Shown here: in pieces, positions 6,840 through 32,787 of the stretch
Layout of the letters: each line of letters starts with the position of its first letter
How positions within the stretch are numbered: the stretch's first letter is position 1
DNA from: Cohnella kolymensis
GTDB lineage: Bacteria; Bacillota; Bacilli; Paenibacillales; Paenibacillaceae
Assembly (NCBI RefSeq): GCF_000829465.1
Contig: NZ_JXAL01000017.1
Location: 1-64,000, forward strand
Direction: 5' to 3'
DNA: 64,000 nucleotides
The notes under the pieces: generated by a model
Seen by the model: the letters and a program-made list of their open reading frames with translations, nothing else
Database searches by the model: none
What the model was told of the DNA's origin: nothing
Made by a program: the position numbers and the translations under genes

Positions 6840-7685
6840 CTATTCAAATGTAATGATCGGTTTGATGGTGATCCCTTTGGCGGAATCCTCGAACGCCTGA
6901 TTGATCTCATCGAATGCATAGTATTTGATCAGTCTGTCAAACGGGAATCTTCCCTTTTTGTACAACTCAATCAACGCCGGAATGTACAATTGGGGCACGC
7001 TTCGGCCCATCAAAAACCCACTGAGCGTTCGTTCAAACAAAATCGTATTTAGATCAACAGTGGCCTCCGTGCCCAGCTTCGAACCGCCGACTTGTACCGC
7101 AACCCCCAATAATTGAAGGCTATCGATTGCGTTTCGTGTGTTTTCCGGACGTCCGCTGGCCTCAACTGCATGATCCACGCCGCCGCCAGTAATACTCTTT
7201 ATCCTCTCCACTACGTTACCCTTGAATGGGCTGATCACACCGACAACCCCAACAGGTAAACGGTACACGCGATTCTCTTTGCCAGGAATGACCGAGGGCC
7301 GAATTTCCCCGGTCATGTTCATTGGAATCGCAGCATAATAACGAATGTCTCCGATAAACATGTCGACCTCGGTCTCCGCCTTGAGATGCGAACTGCCGGT
7401 CTCAATCGTAAGGATCTCAATCAGGTCTTCCCGCTGCTTCTCCACAATGTCGGCTGCCTTCATCATGATGGCAGAACGTGTGTACCGGTTAAGATCCCAC
7501 CACTCGACTTGCGCTGTCGCAGCAGAGCGATAGGCCTCCTCCACATCCTCCTTGGAGGCTAAACGGATGGTAACCAACTCCGATTCGTCGAACGGATTCC
7601 GGTTTGTGTATTGTCTCTCACTGCGACCAGTGCGCCATGCTCCAGCAATGAACTGTTTGTCCCAAGTTTTAAACTCAACCGCCAT
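6840..7685 (-). CDS. Chimeric ORF: aldehyde dehydrogenase N-terminus joined to zinc alcohol dehydrogenase C-terminus
   Basis: 281 residues. Residues 1-154 match the N-terminal part of an NAD(P) aldehyde dehydrogenase (FIAGAWRTG, NPFDESEL, GVVGVISPF). From about residue 155 the sequence is the C-terminal part of an aryl/benzyl-alcohol dehydrogenase (ITGGGVDHAVEASGRPE, IELYKKGRFPFDRLIKYYAF, KGITIKPI). The join is in frame near 7223 at ISPF/KGNV. The product lacks the aldehyde dehydrogenase catalytic Cys and Glu and the zinc-binding half of the alcohol dehydrogenase, so neither activity is expected. The simplest origin is a deletion between two neighbouring genes of an aromatic-alcohol pathway. 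Confidence 0.85.
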   Translation of the reverse strand: MAVEFKTWDKQFIAGAWRTGRSERQYTNRNPFDESELVTIRLASKEDVEEAYRSAATAQVEWWDLNRYTRSAIMMKAADIVEKQREDLIEILTIETGSSHLKAETEVDMFIGDIRYYAAIPMNMTGEIRPSVIPGKENRVYRLPVGVVGVISPFKGNVVERIKSITGGGVDHAVEASGRPENTRNAIDSLQLLGVAVQVGGSKLGTEATVDLNTILFERTLSGFLMGRSVPQLYIPALIELYKKGRFPFDRLIKYYAFDEINQAFEDSAKGITIKPIITFE

Positions 7686-10354: not shown

Positions 10355-11128
10355 TTACGCGAACTTCTTTCGGCTCTTTTTGTAGTCAGCCGCCAAACTT
10401 GTGATCTTATTATAGAACGTTTTATCTTCCAATCGGTCAAACAATTTATACGAGGGATATGCAAGGTTTACCTCGATAATCCATATCCTCCCCAGATAAT
10501 CGATACCAAAATCAATACCGGTCTCATGGGTTCGATACCCCTTTTTGGCAGCATATCGAATCAATCTAAAAGAGTGGCGGATCAAGTCGCGTTTTATGCT
10601 CGCGATTCGTTCGCGACCGTAGCCTAATGATTTGGCCAAAGCATTGTCGATTGTGGTCGCATACCCTCCACCGCGTCGAACATTGGTCACTACGCTGTCT
10701 GTTCCTGCGACTTTCGCCAGCATCCCCGCGTAGTGCCATTTTTCTTTCCCGTCTCGCATTAACATAACGCGAATGGAGAAGGGTCTTCCTTCAATCATAG
10801 GCGAATGAATGGTCTTTTGGATGAGAACCGAGTTTTTACTTCGTCCGTCTCTGAGCTTATCATATAGTTCATCGATCGATTGCACGGTAACCGGCTTCCC
10901 CTTGACTTTAATGAAATGATAACCTTCTTCTGTTTTCCAAACCTTTATGATTGCTGAGCCTTTATGCTCTTTGTTTCCTTTGACATATACCGACTTGTAT
11001 TTATCCAAGTATTTCGAAAGGGAGCTTAGAGTCAGAATCGATGTCGGAGGCAAAATTTTGCGGAGCTCGGAATGTTTGGAATACAGACGATGTATCTCCC
11101 ACTTTGAACCATCCCATTTAAAGCCCAT
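10355..11128 (-). CDS. YheC/YheD-family ATP-grasp protein (operon gene 6)
   Basis: 257 residues, single ATP-grasp domain of the YheC/D type. Visible are the ATP-binding strand VYVKGNKEHKGSAIIKV, the central RPFSIRVMLMRD, and the metal-binding segment GIDFGIDYLGRIWIIEVN. ATP-grasp enzymes join a carboxylate to an amine or thiol through an acyl-phosphate. Bacillus YheC and YheD are spore-coat-associated, with no known substrate. It is the last gene of the minus-strand operon, 4 nt after the stop of the preceding ATP-grasp gene. It diverges more than its neighbours in the glycine-rich loop (one Gly rather than two or three), so activity is less certain. Confidence 0.8.
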   Translation of the reverse strand: MGFKWDGSKWEIHRLYSKHSELRKILPPTSILTLSSLSKYLDKYKSVYVKGNKEHKGSAIIKVWKTEEGYHFIKVKGKPVTVQSIDELYDKLRDGRSKNSVLIQKTIHSPMIEGRPFSIRVMLMRDGKEKWHYAGMLAKVAGTDSVVTNVRRGGGYATTIDNALAKSLGYGRERIASIKRDLIRHSFRLIRYAAKKGYRTHETGIDFGIDYLGRIWIIEVNLAYPSYKLFDRLEDKTFYNKITSLAADYKKSRKKFA

Positions 11129-11132
11129 GTCA

Positions 11133-11846
11133 TCATTCCTTTTTTATTATTTTTTTGGCATGTAGATATCTCCGATACAACTTCCCGTCATACCTCTTCA
11201 TCCCTGAGCATTCCGGTTTCGTATTGGCTTCGATGAACCACACTTTTCCTTTCTTATCGATTCCCATATCCAACCCGAGAATGTTAAGTGGAAAATGGGA
11301 ACTGAGAATTTGCGCGATTTGATGGGATGCATCCATTAAATCCCGCAAGACAGCAAAACTGTTCAAGGATTGATCGGTTCCCTTGAGCAATTTGTAAAGA
11401 TTACGGTCCTCTGCGCCCTTCGCTACATTCGTGACGACCGATGACTTGTGAGGTGCGAGTTTGGCGGACATTAACGTCGCACGCCACTTGCCCAGAGGTT
11501 TTTGCAAGACAACCCGCACATCGAAGGGGCGATTCTGGTAAGTGGCCAAATCAACCCCTTGTTGGATGATGTATTTCTTTTCGGGCTTCAGAATCTTTTT
11601 GATTCGCGAATACAGTTTATCCGGTGAGCTACGGCTCGTGGTTTTTTTATATGAAATCTCACATTCTTTAGAGTTAAGCTTCTTGACACGGATGATCCCA
11701 GTCCCTTTATTTCCGCTATCCGGTTTTATATAAACGCACGAATAGGTTTTCAGCATTTTATGGAGGGATGAATATTCAAACCAATCCGTATCCGGAACAT
11801 AATGCTTCATGATCGGGTCTTTCATGATGGAAAGTCCCTTTTTCAT
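11133..11846 (-). CDS. YheC/YheD-family ATP-grasp protein (operon gene 5)
   Basis: 237 residues from ATG 11846. Shows VYIKPDSGNKGTGIIRV (ATP loop), PFDVRVVLQK and GLDMGIDKKGKVWFIEAN (metal ligands Asp/Glu/Asn). Start is uncertain: the only strong ribosome site, TAAGGAGGTG, coincides with the stop of the transaminase gene and lies 5 nt before an in-frame ATC at 11873, nine codons upstream of the first ATG. The paralogue at 16721 has the same site 6 nt before its ATG. Either AUC is used or the ATG is served at unusual distance. Translationally coupled to the transaminase gene. Confidence 0.8.
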   Translation of the reverse strand: MKKGLSIMKDPIMKHYVPDTDWFEYSSLHKMLKTYSCVYIKPDSGNKGTGIIRVKKLNSKECEISYKKTTSRSSPDKLYSRIKKILKPEKKYIIQQGVDLATYQNRPFDVRVVLQKPLGKWRATLMSAKLAPHKSSVVTNVAKGAEDRNLYKLLKGTDQSLNSFAVLRDLMDASHQIAQILSSHFPLNILGLDMGIDKKGKVWFIEANTKPECSGMKRYDGKLYRRYLHAKKIIKKE

Positions 11847-11885
11847 CTTGCTGCGAATGACGGTGTGTTCGATACGATCACCTCC

Positions 11886-12998
11886 TTAAATAAACCCTTT
11901 ACGATTCAGATAGGTTTCAAGCAGATTCAAAAATGACTCTATATCTCTGCATGTGATATCACCGATATTTGCGATTCTGAATGTTCTATATTCGTCGAGC
12001 TTGCCGGGATAAATCGTATAGCCTCTGCTATGCAAATAGTCGTGCATCTCTTTGAAGCTGTATCCTTCCACGTTCGGCTCGAAGATGGACGTAACCAGCT
12101 TGGAATGGAGATTATCGCTGGCGATATATTTTAAACCCAGCCGTGTGATGCCCGCGATTAACGTCTCCCAGCATTTCTGATATCGCTCATATCTTTGCTC
12201 AATGCCCTCTTCTTGTAATTCTTCTATCGCTTGTTTAAGCGCATAAAGGGTTTGAACGGGCGGCGTAAACCGGGTTTGACGTGTTTCAGAGAAAAAACGA
12301 TATTGGGCGTACAAATTCAAATAATAATTTTTCGATTTCTTATTCTGCTTTCTTTTCAATAACTCCGTTTCGGCGATGACGAACGAGATCCCGGCCATGG
12401 CTTGAAGGTTTTTGTTGGAACTGGCCGCGAGATAATGTATATTCATTTCGCTCATGTTGATGGGAATTGCTGCAAAAGAACTTATGGCATCGACAATCAG
12501 GTGAATTCGGTGACTCCGGCACAATTCGCCAATCGCTTTAATATCATTAAGAAGTCCGGTTGTCGTCTCGTGGTGAACGACAGCGAGATGGGTGATTTTC
12601 CGGCGGCTATTGTTCAGAAGCGATTCCAACGCAGTCAGATCGATAGCGGCGTGAGGAGGACTGTGAAAGATCAAATGGTTCAAGCCGTAGGCTTCGGCAA
12701 TTTCGCAAAACCTTTCGCCGTACGCGCCGTTATTTACAATCAAAAGCACATCGCCATGATGTACGACGGAACTTAATATGGACTCGACTGCGGCGGTACC
12801 GGAACCCCCGAACAATACGGTCGAATAACTGTCCGGATCGGCAGTCATACGAGTCAAATCTGTGCACACAGATTCCATCAGCAGGCCGAATTCTTTTTCC
12901 CGCGGGCAGATATCAGGCACCACCTGCGCAAGTTTAACGGAATCCGTTGTCGTTGCGGGACCGGGAGTGAGTAAAATATTTCTTCTGACAGGCTGCAT
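11886..12998 (-). CDS. phnW: 2-aminoethylphosphonate--pyruvate transaminase-like PLP enzyme (operon gene 4)
   Basis: 370-residue class V aminotransferase fold. LLTPGPATT at the N-terminus, FGGSGTAAVES, VDAISSF (Asp170 to the PLP ring nitrogen) and SSNKNLQ with Lys196 as the likely Schiff-base lysine match 2-aminoethylphosphonate transaminases (PhnW/AEPT). In phosphonate synthesis such enzymes aminate phosphonoacetaldehyde to 2-aminoethylphosphonate; in degradation they run in reverse. The start overlaps the decarboxylase stop by one base (TGATG). Being next to a phosphonopyruvate-decarboxylase-like gene, with no phosphonatase in view, favours the synthetic direction. Related class V enzymes with other amines remain possible. 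Confidence 0.85.
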   Translation of the reverse strand: MQPVRRNILLTPGPATTTDSVKLAQVVPDICPREKEFGLLMESVCTDLTRMTADPDSYSTVLFGGSGTAAVESILSSVVHHGDVLLIVNNGAYGERFCEIAEAYGLNHLIFHSPPHAAIDLTALESLLNNSRRKITHLAVVHHETTTGLLNDIKAIGELCRSHRIHLIVDAISSFAAIPINMSEMNIHYLAASSNKNLQAMAGISFVIAETELLKRKQNKKSKNYYLNLYAQYRFFSETRQTRFTPPVQTLYALKQAIEELQEEGIEQRYERYQKCWETLIAGITRLGLKYIASDNLHSKLVTSIFEPNVEGYSFKEMHDYLHSRGYTIYPGKLDEYRTFRIANIGDITCRDIESFLNLLETYLNRKGFI

Positions 12999-14158
12999 CA
13001 GCTTCCCACTCCTTCAAATTCGGAGAAATTGCGATTCAAAAATATCTCTAACCGTTCCTTGACTTCATGAGGTTTCATTGCCGGCCGGCCTAACTCATCT
13101 TCGGTGCTTGAAGAAATTTTGAGATGAACAAAGGTCAAGCCTTTCGTCATTTTCCATTCTTCCAGGCATGTGTTCAGCTCGTCTAGATTGTGGATATAAA
13201 TAGACTTTGAGTAACCGCAGGAAGATGCAATATTTACAAAATGAATGTTATGGGATACCGTCATCTGTCCCCCTGTAGAATCATGGGCATTATTATCCAG
13301 TAAGATATGAATCATATTCTCTGGATTATAGTAACCGCTCGTAGCCAAGCTGCCCATGCGCATCAGCAGCGCGCCGTCCCCATCGATCACGACGATATCG
13401 AAGTCCGGTTTACTAAGCGCGAGCCCAAGGCCGAAGGAACCGACACACCCCATAGAGCCGACCATATAAAGGTTATTGCTGGCATCTTCGATTTCGTACA
13501 ATTGCCTTCCGGTTTTTCCGGTTGTCGCAAGCTGGACCGTTTTGGCATCCTTCCATCGATTGATCACCCGTAATGCTTCCTGGCGGGAAGGGAGCTGATC
13601 GTCGGCGTGCTCAGCAACGCTTACTTTGTTAACGCTGAAAGAACGCTCCTGTTTTTCCAATATTTCTTGTGCGAAAGTTCCTTTTTTTACCACAAAGAAA
13701 AAAGGATGTCCGCTTTCAATATACTGGGATGCCAGCACCAGCTGTCGTTTGGCTTTCTCCATATCGTTAGACAAGTACATCCACTTCACCTGCATGGAAT
13801 CAAGCAGCTTTGTCGTTATCCGCCCCATCAGTTCATGCTGAGGCTCATCCGGGTAACCTGGCTGTCCTCGCCAACTCACGAACCCGAGTACCGGCATACG
13901 AAACGGATAGTTAAGAGATACGAGCGGAGAAACGGCGTTCGACAGACCCGAATTTTGCATTAAAACAACCGGTTTCTTTCCTCCGAGCAAGGCTCCCGCA
14001 GCGATCGCGACCGCGTCTCCCTCGTTCGTCGCCCCTATATATTCGCATTCATTAATCGCATAATTGATTAAGTTTTTTAAAAAGGAGCAGGGTACGCCGC
14101 TGTAAAAATCAAAACCCATTTTTTTCAGTTCTCTCCCAAAACTTTTGGTGTTGAGCAT
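12998..14158 (-). CDS. Phosphonopyruvate decarboxylase-like TPP enzyme (operon gene 3)
   Basis: 386 residues from ATG 14158. The N-terminal half has the pyrimidine-binding features of the phosphonopyruvate/sulfopyruvate decarboxylase family (FYSGVPCSFLKNLI, GATNEGDAVAIAAG, MQNSGLSN); the C-terminal half carries the TPP diphosphate motif GDGALLMRMG...NN. The family decarboxylates 3-phosphonopyruvate to phosphonoacetaldehyde (or sulfopyruvate to sulfoacetaldehyde). Pairing with the AEPT-like gene supports the phosphonate reading. GGAGGG lies 13 nt upstream, rather far. The open frame continues upstream into ATP-grasp codons only because of a frameshift in the preceding gene; this is not a designed fusion. 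Confidence 0.85.
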   Translation of the reverse strand: MLNTKSFGRELKKMGFDFYSGVPCSFLKNLINYAINECEYIGATNEGDAVAIAAGALLGGKKPVVLMQNSGLSNAVSPLVSLNYPFRMPVLGFVSWRGQPGYPDEPQHELMGRITTKLLDSMQVKWMYLSNDMEKAKRQLVLASQYIESGHPFFFVVKKGTFAQEILEKQERSFSVNKVSVAEHADDQLPSRQEALRVINRWKDAKTVQLATTGKTGRQLYEIEDASNNLYMVGSMGCVGSFGLGLALSKPDFDIVVIDGDGALLMRMGSLATSGYYNPENMIHILLDNNAHDSTGGQMTVSHNIHFVNIASSCGYSKSIYIHNLDELNTCLEEWKMTKGLTFVHLKISSSTEDELGRPAMKPHEVKERLEIFLNRNFSEFEGVGS

Positions 14159-14178
14159 CGATTGATTCGCACCCTCCT

Positions 14179-15287
14179 TTAGCTGTCGGCGATCGTTAGC
14201 GCATACTCCAGCGGGTTCGAAAAAAACGCGCCGCGCTTTAGACCCATATGCTTTCAAAATTGAAACCTTAGCCGATTGAGCATTGCATTCGATAAGCCAT
14301 AACTTTCCTTCTTTATCCACTGCAAAGTCAATGCCCATTTCTCCGAATTTTCCGTATACTTTCTCCACAGCCACATAAATTTTGCGTAAAAAAATCCTTG
14401 ATATTTTGTTTCAAACTATTTAATTGCTTGGTGGTGTAACGGGGAAAAAGCTTAGGGAGATAAGTATCGTACCGATAAGCGGACGAATGGGTTGTAATTG
14501 GCGAATGGGGTTGGCCTGCCCGCGCGCAAACTCCGACAATATCGATTTCTCTCTTTTTGTTTCTTTGTACTTCGGCCCGAAAATCTACAAGACGGTTGTT
14601 GCTGATCGTCACCAAATCGATCGCCTTCTGTACGACCACTTTTTTATCACCGAAAAAAGATCTGATTGTACGAAGCAAGTGCTCCATATTGTCAGCTTTC
14701 TTGCTGACCAATTTTCCGAGAATGGAATAAGTGCATAGATAACCGGAATTTTTAGACAATTTTTCAACGCGCATCACATGGAGCCCTCTCCTGCCGTCGC
14801 GTGCCTTCACATACACTTTCCCCAACTTCAGAATCGCGCTTTTGATATCATTCTTTTGTTCAACACTTACCGTAAGAGGCAGATGATGACGTACGTTGGG
14901 GTCTTGAATCAATTGCTCGAATAACTCGCCTTTATTAAAGGCATGGATCGGATTGATTCTTTTGATTCCCAGGTACTCGAATTTTTCCAAAAGATCCTTG
15001 GTTTTACCCCCTCTTCCCCGCACATACACGACATCCGGAAATGGAAACGAGCGCTTTGTCCAACTTTTTTTCTTGACGTCAAAGGAAGCCCCCGTAAATT
15101 CCTCCTTGGACAAATCCACTTCTTTATAACTGAAGAAGGCAAGGGAAGTACCGACCTCCTTGTTCGCTTCCACCAGCTTGCGGATTCTAATATGATTACT
15201 GATCTCACTTAGAGACATTGTTCTGGTGCCTAGATATACTCCGACGAGCCGAGGTGCAGTCGAAGAAGCCGTGATTGAACGGTACAT
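14179..15287 (-). CDS. YheC/YheD-family ATP-grasp protein, long form (operon gene 2; two frameshifts)
   Basis: Close paralogue of the intact 384-residue gene at 17501-18655. Two one-base extensions of T7 runs (14388-14394 and 14220-14226 on the + strand) break the frame; removing one base from each gives 368 residues ending DFLRKIYVAVEKVYGKFGEMG...NPLEYALTIADS, TAA 14181-14179, collinear with the paralogue. N-terminal domain residues 1-110 (GVYLGTRTMSLSEI, DVVYVRGRGG), ATP-grasp core with VYVKARDGRRGLHVMRV, DFRAEVQRN and GIDFAVDKEGKLWLIECNAQSA. GAGGTGAAC precedes ATG 15287, 6 nt after the KamA-like stop. If the indels are real, the protein is truncated before its metal site. Confidence 0.8.
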
Positions 15288-15293
15288 TCCTGT

Positions 15294-16470
15294 TCACCTC
15301 ATGTTTTCATTTGTTTTTTTCTGAGGCATATCCGGCATTTCGTTAACGGATATGACTTCCGTCGTCTTCTTGGCCGGTTTGTTCCAATATTTTTCGTTTC
15401 CGGGCAAATCGTCAAACCAGGCGGCCTCCCCGGGACAGTCCAAAATCATCAATTTTCCATACTCCCCGTCACGCGATTGATGATACTTCAAATAAGCTTT
15501 GCCGTTCTCGATGGCGAGGATCTCGATTTTACCGGACGTATGACTCATGCACAGCTTCACGCGTTTGCCTAAGCCCGATGTTCTGGATTTGGCTTCCTCC
15601 ACGATTCGATAGACTTCTTCAAGCGGAAGCACGAATCCCCTGTTGCCCGCAACGGGTCTGTTTATGAAAAAAGTAATAAGGAGTAACACCCGCCCATGAA
15701 AGCTTATCAAGCAATTCGCCGAGCACTGCGGGATCATCATTGATTCCTTGCAGCACAGGCGTTTGATTGACGACAATGGCTCCAGCGTCGTAAAGTGCCT
15801 TGAAACATTTTTTGGCTTCCGGTGTGATTTCTCTGGGATGGTTAACGTGCGCCATGATATAGATCCGCTTCTCTGCCGTAGAATATGTCCGAATCGCATC
15901 AAGCAATTGCTCATCTTCATATATTCTCATGGGGTTGAACACAGGCATTTTGGACCCGATTCTAATAATTTTGACATGCTCGATCGATCTTAGGACTTCT
16001 AGCAAATTGCGAATCTTACTGGTCGCCAGGATCAGCGGATCGCCGCCGGTAAGAAGAACATTGTTGATTTCAGGTGTTCTTGCGATATACTCGATTCCGT
16101 CTTGGACGTCAGGCATCGCCTCTTTCACGTCCGTTCGGAACAAGCGTTTACGAAAGCAAAATCTGCAATACGACCCGCACACTTCCGAGACGAGCAGCAA
16201 AGCGGTCGTTTCGTATTTATGCTGGCATCCTTTTACCACGTAATTCGTGACTTCGTCGGAAGCGTCCCATCGGCCGTATTCCTGAAGCTCATTCGTGCTT
16301 GGGATCACGAGCTTTCGGATGGGGTCATCCGGATTCGACCAGTCGATCAATCGCAAATAATAATCGTTCAGCCGAAAAACGAATTTCTCGGTCACTTTAC
16401 TCAAGGCGGCCCTCTCTCCGTCAGTCAAAAAAGGTAAGTCGTCCAAATGGGTGGTGTATTTCACTTGCAT
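15294..16470 (-). CDS. Lysine 2,3-aminomutase-family radical SAM enzyme (operon gene 1; frameshifted)
   Basis: First gene of the operon, 391 residues after removal of one base. Radical SAM cluster CGSYCRFC (Cys98, 102, 105), GGDPL for SAM amino-group binding, HVNHPREITPEA typical of KamA, and the C-terminal PLP lysine in SHTSGKIEIL. The family converts L-lysine, or glutamate in related members, to the beta-amino acid. The frame shifts at 15671-15676, where T6 replaces the expected T5; the read-through in the next frame, FINRPVAGNRGFVLPLEEVYRI, matches the family. GAGAGGAG precedes ATG 16470. In this operon a beta-amino acid would be a natural ATP-grasp substrate. Exact substrate cannot be read from sequence. 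Confidence 0.85.
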
Positions 16471-16620
16471 GATAAATTGAATTCTCCTCTCAAGTGCATG
16501 TTGATCAGAGTACGACTACAATACCCTCTGTGAATTTGTACTAGTTAATGCGCCAAGGGAATTCCATGTGTTAGATAAACGTGGAAAGCTAAGAGAAATC
16601 CGCAAGCTGACACATTAATA
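16471..16620 (-). promoter_or_regulatory. Conserved leader/promoter block of the ATP-grasp operon
   Basis: This 150-bp block is duplicated upstream of the paralogue at 18715-18862 (shared CCATGTGTTAGATAAACGTGG, ATCCGCAAGCTGA and the whole ribosome-site segment). Minus-strand CATTAACTA, kept in both, is one mismatch from the mother-cell sigma-K -10 element CATANNNTA. Sporulation control is inferred, not shown. Confidence 0.5.
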
Positions 16621-16659
16621 TAAAAAGCCGCGTCCAAGTCATTTTTTAAAAAATGATAG

Positions 16660-16700
16660 AGATTCGTACAAGCATTATCATTTCAAAATTCATATTTTAT
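16660..16700 (+). promoter_or_regulatory. Candidate mother-cell promoter for the 16721 gene
   Basis: CATATTTTA at 16691-16699 fits both the sigma-E (CATANNNT) and sigma-K (CATANNNTA) -10 consensus. GCATTATC lies about 14 nt upstream at the sigma-E -35 position. Consistent with the coat association of YheC/D proteins; no experiment supports it. Confidence 0.4.
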
Positions 16701-16720
16701 TAAAAAAGGAGGTGACGAAC

Positions 16721-17452
16721 ATGAAAACCAGACACAAATGGATGCAGTACAAGCATATGAAACGGTTTGAAAAAATAAGAAGTCATTTGCCGGAAACAGA
16801 GCTGTTCGATAAACACACCTTAAAGGAGCTTATCGGTAAATATGGCGATGTGATTCTTAAGCCTGACGATGGCCGCCGTGGAAGAGGAATTTACAGGGTA
16901 TCCGTGATAGATAAAAAGACTTACGAGATACACAAAGAAAGTAAAAAGAAAGTAATGGGAAAGGGACGGGCCTATGAGTATTTAAAAGACAAAATCGGGT
17001 CTCAAAAGTATCTTGTTCAACGTCGGATTCCGCTTGCTACGATTAACTCCCGTCCTATGGACGTTCGGGTGATCGTACAACGAAAAAGCCACAGCGATGT
17101 ATGGAAAGTAACCGCAATAGTAGTCAAAGTGGCCGGCAAAGGTTATATCGTTACCAATATCGAAAGGAGTAACGGTACGATCATGTCGTTTAAAAAAGCC
17201 CTTCGAAAATCTTCATTAAAAGATTATTCCTATCATAGTTTGTTGTCAAAAATAGAACGGGTTGCTATACGCTCAGCCGAGAAAGTAAGCCGGTTATATT
17301 CGCATCATCGCATTTTCGGATTTGATATGGGCCTTGATAAGAAGGGGTATGCATGGATCATTGAAGTCAATCGGTTTCCAATGATGTCCCACTTCCGTAA
17401 ATTAAAGGACAAAACATTGTATCATCGAATTATGAAATATAAGAGGAGTTGA
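16721..17452 (+). CDS. YheC/YheD-family ATP-grasp protein (divergent single gene)
   Basis: 243 residues from ATG 16721 with AAAGGAGGTGA upstream. ATP loop VILKPDDGRRGRGIYRV, RPMDVRVIVQRK, and GFDMGLDKKGYAWIIEVN with the Asp/Glu/Asn metal ligands. Most like the short ATP-grasp genes at 10355 and 11133. It is read in the opposite direction to the operon, between it and the duplicated long paralogue, and has its own terminator. Function unknown; expected to form an amide or peptide bond, probably late in sporulation by analogy to yheC/yheD. Confidence 0.85.
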   Translation: MKTRHKWMQYKHMKRFEKIRSHLPETELFDKHTLKELIGKYGDVILKPDDGRRGRGIYRVSVIDKKTYEIHKESKKKVMGKGRAYEYLKDKIGSQKYLVQRRIPLATINSRPMDVRVIVQRKSHSDVWKVTAIVVKVAGKGYIVTNIERSNGTIMSFKKALRKSSLKDYSYHSLLSKIERVAIRSAEKVSRLYSHHRIFGFDMGLDKKGYAWIIEVNRFPMMSHFRKLKDKTLYHRIMKYKRS

Positions 17453-17491
17453 AAAAAGCTTTTGTCCCTGCGATAGGACAAAAGCTTTTAT
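17453..17491. terminator. Bidirectional intrinsic terminator
   Basis: AAAAGCTTTTGTCC / GGACAAAAGCTTTT stem between convergent ATP-grasp genes. Confidence 0.85.
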
Positions 17492-17500
17492 TGTTCTATA

Positions 17501-18655
17501 TCAATTGCTGCGGTAACCTCGGCTGTAGTGATGGGATGAATGGTTTCTGTTCGACTTGGCAATCGTCTTGGCATACTCCAGCGGGTTCAAAAAAACTCGC
17601 TGCGCTTTAGCTCCATACGCTTTTACAATGGATACTTTGGCCGATTGAGCATTGCATTCGATAAGCCAAATCTTCCCTTTTGTATCAATGGCAAAGTCAA
17701 TGCCGATTTCCCCGAATTTCCCGTATTTTTTCTCCACGCCCGAATAAACCTTGTGTAAAAAATCTTTGATATCCTTTTTCAAAACCTTTAATTGTTTGGC
17801 GGTGTAACGGGGAAATAACTTCGGCAAATAATCCTCATACCGATAAGCGGAAGAATGGGTTGTAATGGGGGCATTGGACCTGCCTACTCGCACGTTAATT
17901 CCGACAATATCGATTTCGTTGTTTCTATTTCTTTGAACTTCGGCCCGAAAATCGACAAGTCGATTGTCTCCGATCTTCACCAGATCGATCGCCCTCTGAA
18001 CGATCACTTTTTTATCGCCGAAAAAAGTCGTTATTTTTTTAAGCAATTGCTCCGTATTGCTTGCTTTACCGCGAACCAATCTGCCTATAATCGAATAACT
18101 GTATTGATAACCGGAGTTGTTGGGCAATTTTTCAACGCGCATTACCTGCAGCCCTTTCCTGCCGCGGTGAGCTTTAACATACACTTTTCCATACTTAAAA
18201 ATCGTATTTTTGATCTCGCTGCTATTATCGACATTTACGCTGGGAGGCAAATGCGGCCGAACGTTTTTGACTTGGTACAAGTGTTCATATACCTCACCCT
18301 TATTAAAGGCACGGATCGGATTGACTCTTTTGATTCCCAATTCATCGAATTTTTTCAGAAGCTGGTCCGTTACACCTCCTCCTCCCCGTACATAGATGAC
18401 GTCCGGAAAAGGAAATAATTTCTTATCCCACTTTTTTTCCTTGTCATTGAAATAGATCCCGGTGATTTCTTCCTCAGAAAAATCTACTTCGTCTGCGGTG
18501 AAGAAGAAGAGCGTCGTGCCTGCTTCTTTATTCGCTTGCACAAGATTTTTGAGTCTAGGGTATCGTCCAACTTCTCTTAACGGTATGAATCCGTCGCCTA
18601 AATACACTCCTACAATCGTTCGTGCAATCGAAGAATTCCCATACGAACGGCTCAT
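17501..18655 (-). CDS. YheC/YheD-family ATP-grasp protein, long form (intact paralogue)
   Basis: 384 residues. N-terminal substrate-side domain (GVYLGDGFIPL, FPDVIYVRGGGG), ATP-grasp core with VYVKAHRGRKGLQVMRV, DFRAEVQRN and GIDFAIDTKGKIWLIECNAQSA. A short tail rich in His, Ser, Tyr and Arg (NHSSHHYSRGYRSN) follows, a composition common in coat-associated proteins. No ribosome site stands at its own ATG; instead a 20-codon reading frame with a strong site ends in an ATGA overlap with it, implying translational coupling. It is the duplicate of operon gene 2, and the fifth ATP-grasp gene within 8.3 kb. Confidence 0.85.
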   Translation of the reverse strand: MSRSYGNSSIARTIVGVYLGDGFIPLREVGRYPRLKNLVQANKEAGTTLFFFTADEVDFSEEEITGIYFNDKEKKWDKKLFPFPDVIYVRGGGGVTDQLLKKFDELGIKRVNPIRAFNKGEVYEHLYQVKNVRPHLPPSVNVDNSSEIKNTIFKYGKVYVKAHRGRKGLQVMRVEKLPNNSGYQYSYSIIGRLVRGKASNTEQLLKKITTFFGDKKVIVQRAIDLVKIGDNRLVDFRAEVQRNRNNEIDIVGINVRVGRSNAPITTHSSAYRYEDYLPKLFPRYTAKQLKVLKKDIKDFLHKVYSGVEKKYGKFGEIGIDFAIDTKGKIWLIECNAQSAKVSIVKAYGAKAQRVFLNPLEYAKTIAKSNRNHSSHHYSRGYRSN

Positions 18656-18714
18656 GATTGCACGAGCTTTCGGATGGGTTCATTGTGATTCGAACAATCG
18701 TTCAATTGCAGCAT
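18652..18714 (-). pseudogene. KamA remnant acting as a 20-codon leader ORF
   Basis: ATG 18714 follows AAAGGAGAG. The encoded peptide MLQLNDCSNHNEPIRKLVQS ends with TGA overlapping the ATG of the ATP-grasp gene. Its DNA aligns with two separated parts of the KamA-like gene: the start region (near 16468) and codons for DWSNPDDPIRKLV (16306-16352). It is thus the residue of a duplicated aminomutase gene after internal deletions, kept in frame as a coupling leader. Confidence 0.65.
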
Positions 18715-18862
18715 GATAAATTGAACTCTCCTTTCATGTTCATGTTGATCTGTCTTCGATGAAACGCCTCCCTTTCAATTTGTAGTTAGTTAATGCGGTT
18801 ACGGGTAGCCATGTGTTAGATAAACGTGGAAAAGCCATGAAATCCGCAAGCTGAGTCAGCGA
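18715..18862 (-). promoter_or_regulatory. Duplicated leader/promoter block
   Basis: Second copy of the block upstream of the KamA-like gene, including GCATGATAAATTGAACTCTCC (here one substitution from the first copy), CCATGTGTTAGATAAACGTGG and ATCCGCAAGCTGA. Conservation beyond the ribosome site suggests a retained promoter. Confidence 0.5.
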
Positions 18863-30595: not shown

Positions 30596-31612
30596 CTACC
30601 GCTTGGAATATCGGTCAAGCTTTTTGAGAAACGCTGCTATTTTCCTTTCGGCAGACAAAGTGCGATAAAACTGTTTGGCGATCAACTTTTTCACCCGCCT
30701 GTTTGAACGCCGGTATCTGTTCAGCAGAAGATATGTCGTGCGTGGAAACCGAAGCAGTGTACTCAGCATCGCGAAGTCTTCCTCCGTCAGTTTGGTGACC
30801 GTTTGATAACCGTTCAGAATATTTCGGGCAATTGAAAATTTCCAGGAATGATCCTTGCAAGAATTGTAAATGACCCGGTATAAATCATATGCTCTCAAGT
30901 CTATGCGCAGCGTCTCGAAGTCGATTAAATGAGTGCCGCGGCTGTTAATGATGAAGTTTGAGGGCCCTCCATCGCCATGGCACAAACAAGTTAAATGAGA
31001 TCCGGTACGACATATTTTCCGGTATCCGCGCTCGCGCAGAAGCTTCCTGGCTTGATTGGAAAACCCGAGGATTTCTTCCCCATGCTTGCTCAAGCTGCGA
31101 TCCATGGACAGCTTGTTTTTTTTCCGCGATGCCCGTCTGACCATCTTTGCGATCAGCGAATGTCTCGCGCGAAGCTCCTCAGGCCACTGACCTACCTTAT
31201 TGACGGCGCCTCGTCTTTTCAAGCGATCCGGGCGGCCGGCCTGATGAAAACGAGCCAGTGCGGCGCCGCAAGCTCTCATATGCCTCCGGGAATGAACGGA
31301 TGGCCACCGCCCGTTAATCCAAGGAACGAGAACATAGGGAGCGCCGCCGGATCTCTTTTTTACGAACAGACGCCGTCCCGCCTTTGCTTGCGGATTACGC
31401 CAAGCGATCCGAGTGAATCCGTGCCTCCGCACGCACCTGAGCGAACGGTCCATCCACCTCAGGCGTTTGGCTGTAACGGGCATGCGCTTCAAACTATACT
31501 TTCTGCCTTTGCGCAGGACCACCCGATACACCCCCTTCTTAATAGGGATGATTCGCAGCGGTCTTAAACGAAAGCCCCTGACAATTCGGAGCACTTTTTT
31601 GCGGTCACTCAT
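30596..31612 (-). CDS. CotS-like spore coat kinase-fold protein
   Basis: 338 residues, very basic. Aminoglycoside-phosphotransferase/CotS fold: HGDGGPSNFI (catalytic loop, Asp) and LIDFETLRIDLRAYDL (Mg-binding Asp). CotS-family proteins sit in the spore coat, and their true substrate is unknown. The ATG overlaps the stop of the glycosyltransferase by 4 nt (ATGA), reproducing the cotS/cotSA pairing of Bacillus. High Arg/Lys content suits tight packing on anionic polymers. Confidence 0.8.
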   Translation of the reverse strand: MSDRKKVLRIVRGFRLRPLRIIPIKKGVYRVVLRKGRKYSLKRMPVTAKRLRWMDRSLRCVRRHGFTRIAWRNPQAKAGRRLFVKKRSGGAPYVLVPWINGRWPSVHSRRHMRACGAALARFHQAGRPDRLKRRGAVNKVGQWPEELRARHSLIAKMVRRASRKKNKLSMDRSLSKHGEEILGFSNQARKLLRERGYRKICRTGSHLTCLCHGDGGPSNFIINSRGTHLIDFETLRIDLRAYDLYRVIYNSCKDHSWKFSIARNILNGYQTVTKLTEEDFAMLSTLLRFPRTTYLLLNRYRRSNRRVKKLIAKQFYRTLSAERKIAAFLKKLDRYSKR

Positions 31613-32787
31613 CTCGCCTTCACTCTCTTTAAAGGACGACGTTTATTTTTTTGAAGCCGAATGAACACAGACTTATATCTAGCAGCCGTTCTCCGCCAGC
31701 TGTAGCGTTTTGCCACCAGCTTACCCTTACGGATTCGCTTCAGAGTCCTCTGCGGATTGTCCCACATCGCTTGAATGGCTCGCGCAATTGCTTTGCTGTT
31801 CATTCCGGTAATAATTTGTGCGTTGTCTCGATTGACAAATTCCTTGAGTCCGCCCGCCCGGGTTGTAACAAGAGCAATGCCGCTGGCCATCGCCTCAAGC
31901 GCAACCAGACAGAAAGACTCCTTTCTGCTTGGAACGACGACCGCGCCGTAGGCTTTATACAACCTTTGCACCTTTTTATGAGGAACGAACCCGCGCCAGC
32001 GGATTTTCGAGGAGATGCCTTTCTTTCTCGCAATGCTCTTCAGGCGTTTCGAATATTTGCGAGAGCCTTTGCCAATGACGGTCAAGCGGACTTGTCTGTT
32101 TTTAACGGACAATAGAGAGACAGACCGGATCAAGGATTCGATTCCTTTTTCCTTGAACAGCCTGCCGACAAACAACAGTCGATAACGCTTGCTTCCGGAA
32201 CGGCTTGAAACGGATTTAACGCCATGGGGAATGACGATTGCTCTTCGGGCCGCGGCGGGATATCTCTTTCGCAGCTGTTGTTTAAGCCATAAACTTGGAA
32301 CAATGATCCGGTTTGAACGGCGCAGCAGTTTACCTTGGTTTTTCGACCGGAATGTATGTCTGCCTCCCCTTTTGGAAACCAGAGAATGACAGGTATAGAC
32401 GACAGGAATTCGATATTTTCGTTTAAAAAATAATGCCGCCTGGGCGAACTCCAGACTATGAACATGAATGACATCCGGCTTACGGTGTAAATAACGGGCG
32501 GTGATCCGCCGTATGCTGTGCGGTCTAAAAGTTAAACGCTTGCCGCGGTAAAACCGGTTACTGAAGGGAAGTCGAAGGATTGCCGTTCTGCTTCCTCTCG
32601 TGAAGCGGAAGGCTCGGTGTACGCTTGCGGTTATTACGTCGGTTTTCACGTTCGAGTCCTTCAATGCCTTCGTTAATTCAGTAGCAACCGTGCCGAGTCC
32701 GCCAATAATCGCCGGCCCGTACTCTTTAGTCATCACCCACACGGATGGCGAGCGTAGTTTAGTCAATGACATGGCCTCCCCCAACAT
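31609..32787 (-). CDS. CotSA-like GT4-family glycosyltransferase
   Basis: 392 residues, GT-B fold, strongly basic. N-terminal GGLGTVATELTKAL (acceptor/glycine loop), VIHVHSLEF, then the nucleotide-sugar domain LLFVGRLFKEKGIESLI and E-x7-E motif ESFCLVALEAMASG. First gene of the two-gene coat-type operon with the CotS-like kinase. Two starts are possible: ATG 32787 without a clear ribosome site, or ATG 32772 after GGGGGAGG at very short spacing. Confidence 0.85.
   Translation of the reverse strand: MLGEAMSLTKLRSPSVWVMTKEYGPAIIGGLGTVATELTKALKDSNVKTDVITASVHRAFRFTRGSRTAILRLPFSNRFYRGKRLTFRPHSIRRITARYLHRKPDVIHVHSLEFAQAALFFKRKYRIPVVYTCHSLVSKRGGRHTFRSKNQGKLLRRSNRIIVPSLWLKQQLRKRYPAAARRAIVIPHGVKSVSSRSGSKRYRLLFVGRLFKEKGIESLIRSVSLLSVKNRQVRLTVIGKGSRKYSKRLKSIARKKGISSKIRWRGFVPHKKVQRLYKAYGAVVVPSRKESFCLVALEAMASGIALVTTRAGGLKEFVNRDNAQIITGMNSKAIARAIQAMWDNPQRTLKRIRKGKLVAKRYSWRRTAARYKSVFIRLQKNKRRPLKRVKAR

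Follow-up and report, generated by a model that had tools for sequence, protein, structure and literature searches.

Complementary operons in Cohnella kolymensis pair 2-aminoethylphosphonate biosynthesis with YheC/D ATP-grasp ligases: a possible route to phosphonates on the spore surface

What is made by an operon that joins a KamA-type radical SAM aminomutase, a phosphonopyruvate decarboxylase (Ppd), a 2-aminoethylphosphonate transaminase (AEPT) and several YheC/D ATP-grasp ligases, and where does its product go? The question is raised by a 64,000-nucleotide stretch of Cohnella kolymensis (contig NZ_JXAL01000017.1, positions 1 to 64,000), hereafter the window, and by a second, paralogous operon found in the same genome on another contig (C3). 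The answer that we find on balance probable is that the two operons together encode the making of 2-aminoethylphosphonate (AEP) and its attachment, in the sporulating mother cell, to the spore coat. Within this answer, AEP synthesis is well supported by homology and amide ligation by the YheC/D enzymes is likely, while the acceptor, the substrate of KamA and the spore location are what we infer. In Bacilli, AEP biosynthesis and dedicated YheC/D ligases form a real and conserved pair, to which a subset of genomes adds a specialised KamA.

The window operon occupies positions 10355-16470 of the minus strand, and two more ATP-grasp genes lie beside it. Its features are the following (PF14398 is the YheC/D family; ORF, open reading frame):

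15294-16470, minus strand: kamA copy (KamA-type radical SAM aminomutase) that a frameshift divides into an N-terminal piece (15634-16470) and a C-terminal piece (15318-15671)
14159-15287, minus strand: AGlong, long YheC/D ATP-grasp and partner of kamA, split by a frameshift at about 14388-14410 (N-terminal piece, PF14398, 130 bits; tblastn in two frames)
12998-14158, minus strand: Ppd, open frame, the ORF extending upstream into the broken ATP-grasp (TIGR03297, 412.6 bits, cut-off 312.5)
11886-12998, minus strand: AEPT, apparently of biosynthetic type (TIGR03301, 395.9 bits, cut-off 360.8; nearest structure 6pd1)
11133-11846, minus strand: AG1, short YheC/D ATP-grasp (PF14398, 180.9 bits; ortholog group in the tree)
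10355-11128, minus strand: AG3, short YheC/D ATP-grasp (PF14398, 170.8 bits; ortholog group in the tree)
16712-17452, plus strand: AG-II, short YheC/D ATP-grasp, divergent from kamA (PF14398, 194 bits; tree placement)
17501-18655, minus strand: AGlong2, second long YheC/D ATP-grasp, open frame (PF14398, 212.9 bits; 60% identity to the AGlong of C3)
18661-18719, minus strand: kamA remnant of 59 nt ahead of AGlong2 (local alignment to kamA)
16542-16572, minus strand: sigma-K-like promoter element AC-N17-CATTAACTA before kamA (one of three exact matches in the genome to a stricter pattern)
18787-18817, minus strand: the same promoter element before AGlong2 (match to the stricter pattern; conserved upstream box at 18812-18836)

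The list of genes, strands and order given in a preliminary description of this locus agrees with these coordinates, and its family assignments hold as well: Ppd, AEPT and the YheC/D proteins exceed their Pfam or NCBIfam cut-offs (that of PF14398 is passed by six window ORFs, corresponding to five genes), and the radical SAM/KamA assignment stands. The genes are tightly spaced, with 6 nt between kamA and AGlong, a 1-nt overlap of Ppd and AEPT, and 4 nt between AG1 and AG3; the range of 1-24 nt first reported for the junctions is, however, exceeded by the 39 nt between AEPT and AG1. Elsewhere in the window, an ORF at 6840-7685 (minus strand) resembles an aldehyde dehydrogenase in its first part and a zinc alcohol dehydrogenase in its last, as judged by eye, and may be a deletion chimera or an assembly artefact.

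The first step to be accounted for is the entry into the pathway. As the window holds no phosphoenolpyruvate (PEP) mutase, it had been suggested that a 2-oxo acid other than phosphonopyruvate might enter. The window does lack the gene, but a search of the whole genome returned four matches, one of which is a true PEP mutase (PepM) that heads the paralogous operon on C3. This protein of 289 amino acids, with PEP_mutase as its sole domain, scores 391.8 bits with the equivalog model TIGR02320 (cut-off 319.55) and 453 bits with the solved PEP mutase 1m1b, and in the alignment it carries EDKIFPKTNS, which fits the motif EDKxxxxxNS by which PEP mutases are defined (PMC6697681). The idea of a non-phosphonate 2-oxo acid feeding Ppd was dropped once this enzyme turned up. 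Judged by their sequences and neighbouring genes, the three other matches look like methylisocitrate lyase, isocitrate lyase and PanB. The C3 operon reads pepM-kamA-AGlong-ppd-AG1-AG2-AG3 in open frames and is followed by two genes that we take to be CotB-like (their only Pfam match is DUF6897, at 24.2 and 23.2 bits with a cut-off of 23.9) and then by a CotH kinase gene (236 bits). It contains no AEPT, and in the genome-wide AEPT search a single match of nine, the window gene, exceeds the cut-off. Since the PEP mutase lies on C3 and the only AEPT above the cut-off lies in the window, the two loci appear complementary, and it is well supported by homology that together they would encode the route from PEP to AEP: the PEP mutase of C3 would convert PEP into phosphonopyruvate, the Ppd of either locus would decarboxylate it to phosphonoacetaldehyde, and the AEPT of the window would aminate the latter to AEP.

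The two downstream enzymes are of the phosphonate type. The Ppd proteins of the window and C3 are 71% identical and both exceed the equivalog cut-off of TIGR03297 (401.4 bits for C3), remaining below the cut-offs of the sulfopyruvate decarboxylase models. The window AEPT passes TIGR03301 and the broader PhnW model NF010006 (334.2 vs 296), fails the catabolic PhnW model TIGR02326 (326.7 vs 400.8), and has as its nearest solved structure the nucleotidyltransferase/aminotransferase 6pd1 (370 bits, compared with 256 bits for PhnW 1m32), which we take to be the structure from the Pnt pathway paper; on these scores it looks biosynthetic rather than catabolic. When a PEP mutase is paired with Ppd, moreover, the direction is that of synthesis. 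It is thus very improbable that the enzymes degrade phosphonates or use another 2-oxo acid such as sulfopyruvate: Ppd passes its own equivalog model and none for sulfopyruvate decarboxylase, and AEPT falls short of catabolic PhnW. What such a reading can draw on is that the solved structures closest to Ppd belong to two-subunit thiamine pyrophosphate enzymes, only putatively phosphonopyruvate decarboxylases, and that ppd and pepM of Paenibacillus polymyxa have been counted among degradation genes (PMC4209062).

Is this combination of genes more than an accident of one genome? Among 245 genomes of the family, PEP mutase was found in 25, a Ppd match in 25 (23 over the cut-off) and an AEPT match in 68. 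Loci were compared over 20 stretches around pathway genes (from 19 genomes) and 20 around kamA. The full order pepM-kamA-AGlong-ppd-aept-AG1-AG2-AG3 is contiguous in four genomes (L045, L046, L047 and L048); L049 lacks AG2, L050, L051 and L052 hold rearranged sets, and in L053 and L054, taken as C. silvisoli, the set is split over two loci, each with an element fitting the kamA promoter pattern. The remaining ten pathway stretches are without kamA. The intact operon is present, for example, in Cohnella endophytica and C. pontilimi, and Paenibacillus terrae has the type that is without KamA. Around general kamA genes, 19 stretches of 13-20 kb (L065-L083) contain no YheC/D, PepM, Ppd or AEPT; L084, a kamA stretch on a short contig, has kamA with ATP-grasps. 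Because the operon recurs in other genomes and none of the 19 general kamA stretches holds YheC/D, the association of kamA, YheC/D and phosphonate genes is more than chance. Conservation of the neighbourhood, on which the preliminary description had made its proposal depend, is therefore observed.

The association extends beyond the family. A survey of PepM in named genomes, which took the best 80 of 561 loci and leans to Bacillota, found YheC/D ligases (at least 200 bits, within 8 kb) at 38 of 51 stand-alone PepMs vs 0 of 29 PepMs longer than 430 amino acids, stand-alone and fused forms being separated here by length only; of four long PepMs tested with Pfam, two have a nucleotidyltransferase domain and two have no second domain. 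ATP-grasp matches below 200 bits, which occur in many Bacillus-type loci, were left out of this count, and as the one that was checked proved to be a fusion of a COOH-NH2 ligase with YheC/D, amide ligases are not absent from Bacillus-type loci. The usual arrangement runs PepM, Ppd, AEPT, ATP-grasp, and in many cases a further ATP-grasp stands before PepM; it was seen in many Paenibacillus and in Alicyclobacillus, Thermoflavimicrobium, Shimazuella, Kroppenstedtia and others, with a variant in Chengkuizengella. In Alicyclobacillus pomorum (L102), PepM, Ppd, AEPT, the cluster kamA and members of AGlong, AG1, AG2, AG3 and AG-II all lie within 14 kb. AG-II, at a limit of at least 336 bits set after the score gap had been seen, occurs in 20 of 398 Bacilli genomes, all 20 with PepM vs 35 of 398 overall (Fisher p=1e-24), and weaker relatives in 29 further genomes are mostly without PepM. 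The two genes are at most 4 kb apart in 18 of the 20 genomes and on different contigs in C. kolymensis and in G505. A comparison of conserved neighbours of the cluster loci, covering ORFs of at least 50 amino acids, revealed no clear acceptor peptide.

The survey also brought up phosphonate loci of other kinds. Eight of them (L105, L108, L117, L118, L138, L145, L147 and L151) hold a different, Bacillus-type cluster with a long PepM, Ppd, AEPT and, by eye, NUDIX-like and spermidine-synthase-like genes; a Mur-ligase-like family, for which the Pfam check covered the L093 member, is present in at least seven of the eight. Upstream in L117 lies an 877-amino-acid fusion of a COOH-NH2 ligase type 2 with YheC/D. 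The PepM ORF of L061 (G111:C15, 8701-10014) has an N-terminal extension that is cytidylyltransferase-like by eye and which, we assume, resembles the fosfomycin-type Fom1.

The state of the window copy itself must also be considered. Its kamA reads in two overlapping frames whose pieces are 81% and 86% identical to the intact kamA of C3; AGlong reads in two frames likewise (14388-15287 and 14159-14410 by tblastn; 56% identical to the AGlong of C3), and the 458-amino-acid ORF at 12998-14374 is the C-terminus of this ATP-grasp read into Ppd, whose own start lies near 14158. The 59-nt stub ahead of AGlong2 aligns to kamA with a score of 61, the maximum of 500 shuffles being 25, and sits behind a copy of the kamA promoter, so that a duplication of a kamA-AGlong unit, with loss of most of one kamA, is probable. 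Ppd, AEPT, AG1, AG3, AG-II and AGlong2 are open frames. Judged by its reading frames, the window holds what appears to be a partly decayed duplicate (kamA, AGlong) that keeps the only AEPT of the pathway; it would have been born by duplication and would still carry that gene. The frameshifts, and the further kamA reduced to a stub, could also mean that the window operon is a dying, functionless duplicate and that only the C3 operon, with a product other than AEP, matters. We consider this unlikely, given the six open frames and the fact that L045-L049 hold AEPT within a single operon, which explains the missing AEPT of C3 if the window copy supplies it. Broken frames were met elsewhere too: the Ppd frames of L116 and L134 are in pieces within otherwise complete clusters, through single-gene decay or sequencing errors, and two YheC/D matches of the C. 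kolymensis genome (G000:C14:73184-73843 and C32:15994-16741) have internal stop codons and are probably more decayed copies.

The next question is what KamA contributes. The likeness of the cluster protein to lysine and glutamate 2,3-aminomutases is clear: the C3 KamA exceeds the cut-off of TIGR00238 (213.0 vs 199.2; the N-terminal piece of the window alone reaches 198.7), scores 183 bits with lysine 2,3-aminomutase 2a5h, keeps the radical SAM motif CxxxCxxC as CGAYCRFC, and has a conserved lysine, K316, at the place expected for the pyridoxal phosphate-binding lysine, according to a hand alignment beyond the printed match. The substrate-specific models, however, are far from being satisfied, with 217.1 vs 525.4 for the lysine enzyme (TIGR03820) and 222.9 vs 650 for the glutamate enzyme (TIGR04368), the latter being nevertheless the best-scoring model; the window kamA is likewise under every such cut-off. 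Lysine 2,3-aminomutase has an Asp293/Asp330 pair, in which Asp293 binds the side-chain amine of lysine. The cluster KamA differs in carrying at the Asp293 position, counted on the alignment, an arginine (Arg273) in 39 of 39 rows (35 distinct); the Asp330 region lies beyond the 2a5h alignment and was compared by eye only. This replacement makes it more likely that the substrate is acidic, for instance glutamate, or is a phosphonate, but as general kamA also has Arg273, the residue by itself is no pointer to a phosphonate.

The possibility that the cluster kamA is simply the ordinary kamA of Paenibacillaceae was ruled out by its separate clade and by near-fixed differences such as F106/Y and C309/S. 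In the kamA tree, 19 of the 20 cluster rows fall into a single clade (support 100/99) apart from the 19 general kamAs, the other row (L098) falling outside on a very long branch. The cluster type, recognised by residues that were checked for 30 matches with loci (matches without loci are at most 77% identical), is present in 12 of the 245 family genomes; ten of the 12 also have PepM (Fisher p=1e-9), in every case no more than a few kb away. G034 and G014, which have a cluster-type kamA and no PepM match, are genomes 75% and 90% complete. A second kamA at 74-76% identity is carried by G014, G117, G156 and G171, and both G156 copies stand in the tree, on opposite sides.

If AEP is made, the YheC/D ligases are the candidates for its attachment. 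To our knowledge, no chemistry has been described for this family. A FastTree tree of 129 ATP-grasps contains AGlong, AG1, AG2, AG3 and AG-II as ortholog groups, from which most of the genome's other YheC/D genes are separated, although a few are neighbours of the AG2 group. The plus-strand ligase of the window groups with ligases found 3' of AEPT in other genera, which together form AG-II. Across 21 AG-II sequences, K50, R119, D205, E218 and N220 are invariant, and we take them to be residues of catalytic type. The model of AG-II (predicted local distance difference test, pLDDT, 92) has TTLL6, TTL and RimK as its nearest solved folds; that of AGlong, built on AGlong2 (pLDDT 87.6), is nearest to D-Ala ligases, ligases of ribosomally synthesised and post-translationally modified peptides, TTL and LysX/ArgX with modest template modelling (TM) scores. 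For both models, identity to these folds is 10-20% and TM-scores are mostly 0.45-0.7. TTLL6, TTL and RimK attach amino acids to proteins. The likeness of the modelled ligases to TTL/TTLL6, RimK and LysX/ArgX makes a protein or peptide the most likely acceptor. In place of the nucleotidyl activation of most phosphonate clusters, the ligases would form the amide bonds that hold together AEP, this acceptor and, probably, a beta-amino acid made by KamA. Five YheC/D ATP-grasp genes also stand in a row elsewhere in the genome (G000:C5:43448-49105), on a contig where no phosphonate genes were found.

ATP-grasp ligases could, alternatively, join AEP or another phosphonate to amino acids in a soluble phosphonopeptide, secreted as an antibiotic or signal in the manner of the phosphonoalamides. 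The pathways of that type share with the cluster a PEP mutase and two ATP-grasp ligases, such ligases build these peptides in Streptomyces and are proposed to do so in Bacillus (PMC11867202), and the presence of several linked ligases would suit stepwise peptide assembly. We nevertheless judge a phosphonopeptide rather unlikely. The phosphonoalamide pathways diverge at phosphonopyruvate, which they transaminate to phosphonoalanine, whereas the cluster takes the branch through Ppd and AEPT (PMC11867202). The contiguous operons of L045-L048 and C3 leave no room inside for an exporter, a statement about the operons and not their flanks, which were not checked individually; an ABC-transporter-like family has a member at some position in 19 of 93 loci. 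Finally, the recurrence of the set over spore-forming families, with a sporulation-like promoter, fits a structural role better.

The remaining part of the question, where the product would go, depends on neighbouring genes and promoters, which make a spore link plausible. The families carrying the set are spore-forming. CotH genes lie near the clusters of C. kolymensis and L052, and in L107 the kamA is preceded by a kinase (Pfam: APH only) that presumably resembles CotS. In addition, the yheC and yheD genes of Bacillus subtilis, whose products belong to the same PF14398 family as the cluster ligases (the control genome gave the match), are part of the sigma-E/SpoIIID mother-cell programme of sporulation (PMC517825). 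Ligation would accordingly be placed in the sporulating mother cell, and its product would decorate the spore coat. In the window, at 30596-32787 (minus strand), an APH-type kinase and, next after it, a group 1 glycosyltransferase (both by Pfam) recall the spore coat pair CotS/CotSA.

The promoter evidence comes from a sigma-E and sigma-K scan of 103 cluster heads and 534 control genes. The sigma-K consensus is AC-N16/17-CATANNNTA, and before kamA an element AC-N17-CATNNNNT(A/G) resembles it, differing in the fourth base of CATA. Since the element was noticed by inspecting the scan, the pattern AC-N17-CATNNNNT[AG] is post hoc. It is found at 13 of 17 distinct cluster kamAs (the misses are L084, L088, L098 and L102) and at 0 of 19 general kamAs, with a background of 31 of 534 controls (slightly longer regions) and about 3% of shuffles; most of these kamAs come from close relatives, so these counts are not independent. 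The stricter pattern has three exact matches in the C. kolymensis genome, all in clusters; allowing one mismatch adds six matches at other sites (one in a reversed control). Most cluster kamAs have a conserved box upstream of the element. This box (approximately GCGGATTTCTTGGCTTTTCCACGTTT) lies directly upstream, before kamA or ppd, in L045-L048, L054, L086, the window and L005, less clearly in L049, and is possibly a regulator site.

Several observations weigh against the reading in which AEP is made by the two operons and attached in the mother cell to the spore coat. In this genome, AEPT and PEP mutase are encoded on separate contigs. With frameshifts in both kamA and AGlong, the window copy alone could not make the full product, although the frameshifts are possibly sequencing errors. 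YheC/D genes are so numerous (22 matches in this genome) that some proximity to pathway genes is to be expected. Cluster heads show no sigma-E enrichment (score of at least 11: 24 of 103 vs 130 of 534 controls) and a weak one for sigma-K (score of at least 6: 17 of 103 vs 43 of 534), with nine of the 17 carrying the kamA-type element. Of the cluster heads other than kamA, 88 of 92 are without this element (four fit). It is absent before the cotH and cotB-like genes of this genome and from 31 of 32 heads among the PepM operons whose first gene is not kamA, where starts are approximate and only L102 fits; control by sigma-K is for these reasons best treated as hypothetical.

Could AEP instead be joined through amide bonds to a polymer of the cell wall or capsule during growth, with no particular relation to spores? 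No nucleotidyltransferase was found among the scanned proteins of the C3 and window operons, a scan of operon proteins that did not take in the wider flanks. This result, the CotH genes near two loci and the place of B. subtilis yheC/yheD in the mother-cell programme (PMC517825) make such a polymer distinctly unlikely, even though most bacterial phosphonate capacity serves to tailor cell surfaces (PMC6697681) and the L107 cluster lies among genes of one glycosyltransferase family.

The closest described system is the Pnt pathway (PMC6697681), which shares PEP mutase, Ppd and AEPT with the cluster, the cluster AEPT being nearest to 6pd1. Pnt employs the nucleotidyltransferase PntC, whereas the cluster has a stand-alone PepM and YheC/D amide ligases instead. 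The words 'grasp', 'ligase', 'spore', 'Paenibacillus' and 'Firmicutes' are absent from the available part of that paper. In the open literature, among the matches listed, no title or start of an abstract connects phosphonates with YheC/D ligases or with kamA, or AEP with spores, although an earlier mention is possible in older papers on amidoligases and pepM diversity; as far as searched, the gene pairing is undescribed.

In its widest form, the reading favoured here would be that spore-forming Bacilli use phosphonates in a second, unrecognised way: without nucleotide activation, YheC/D ligases acting in relay would place AEP as a cap or cross-link on proteins of the spore surface, or on a beta-peptide that these carry. 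In the fullest variant of this reading, a dedicated KamA would supply an unusual beta-amino acid, or would even shift the amino group within an amino acid that bears a phosphonate. This general form is put forward tentatively, as possible but short of probable. The nucleotidyltransferase of the surface-tailoring route is present in over two-thirds of phosphonate clusters (PMC6697681); for part of the up to one third that are without it, amide ligation by YheC/D enzymes offers a concrete alternative. Two questions, the function of YheC/D ligases and the presence of phosphonates on bacterial spores, become testable together. If the reading is true, YheC/D enzymes would gain a chemical role and spores would bear carbon-phosphorus bonds, and spore phosphonates could affect adhesion, charge, resistance and the cycling of phosphorus in soil.

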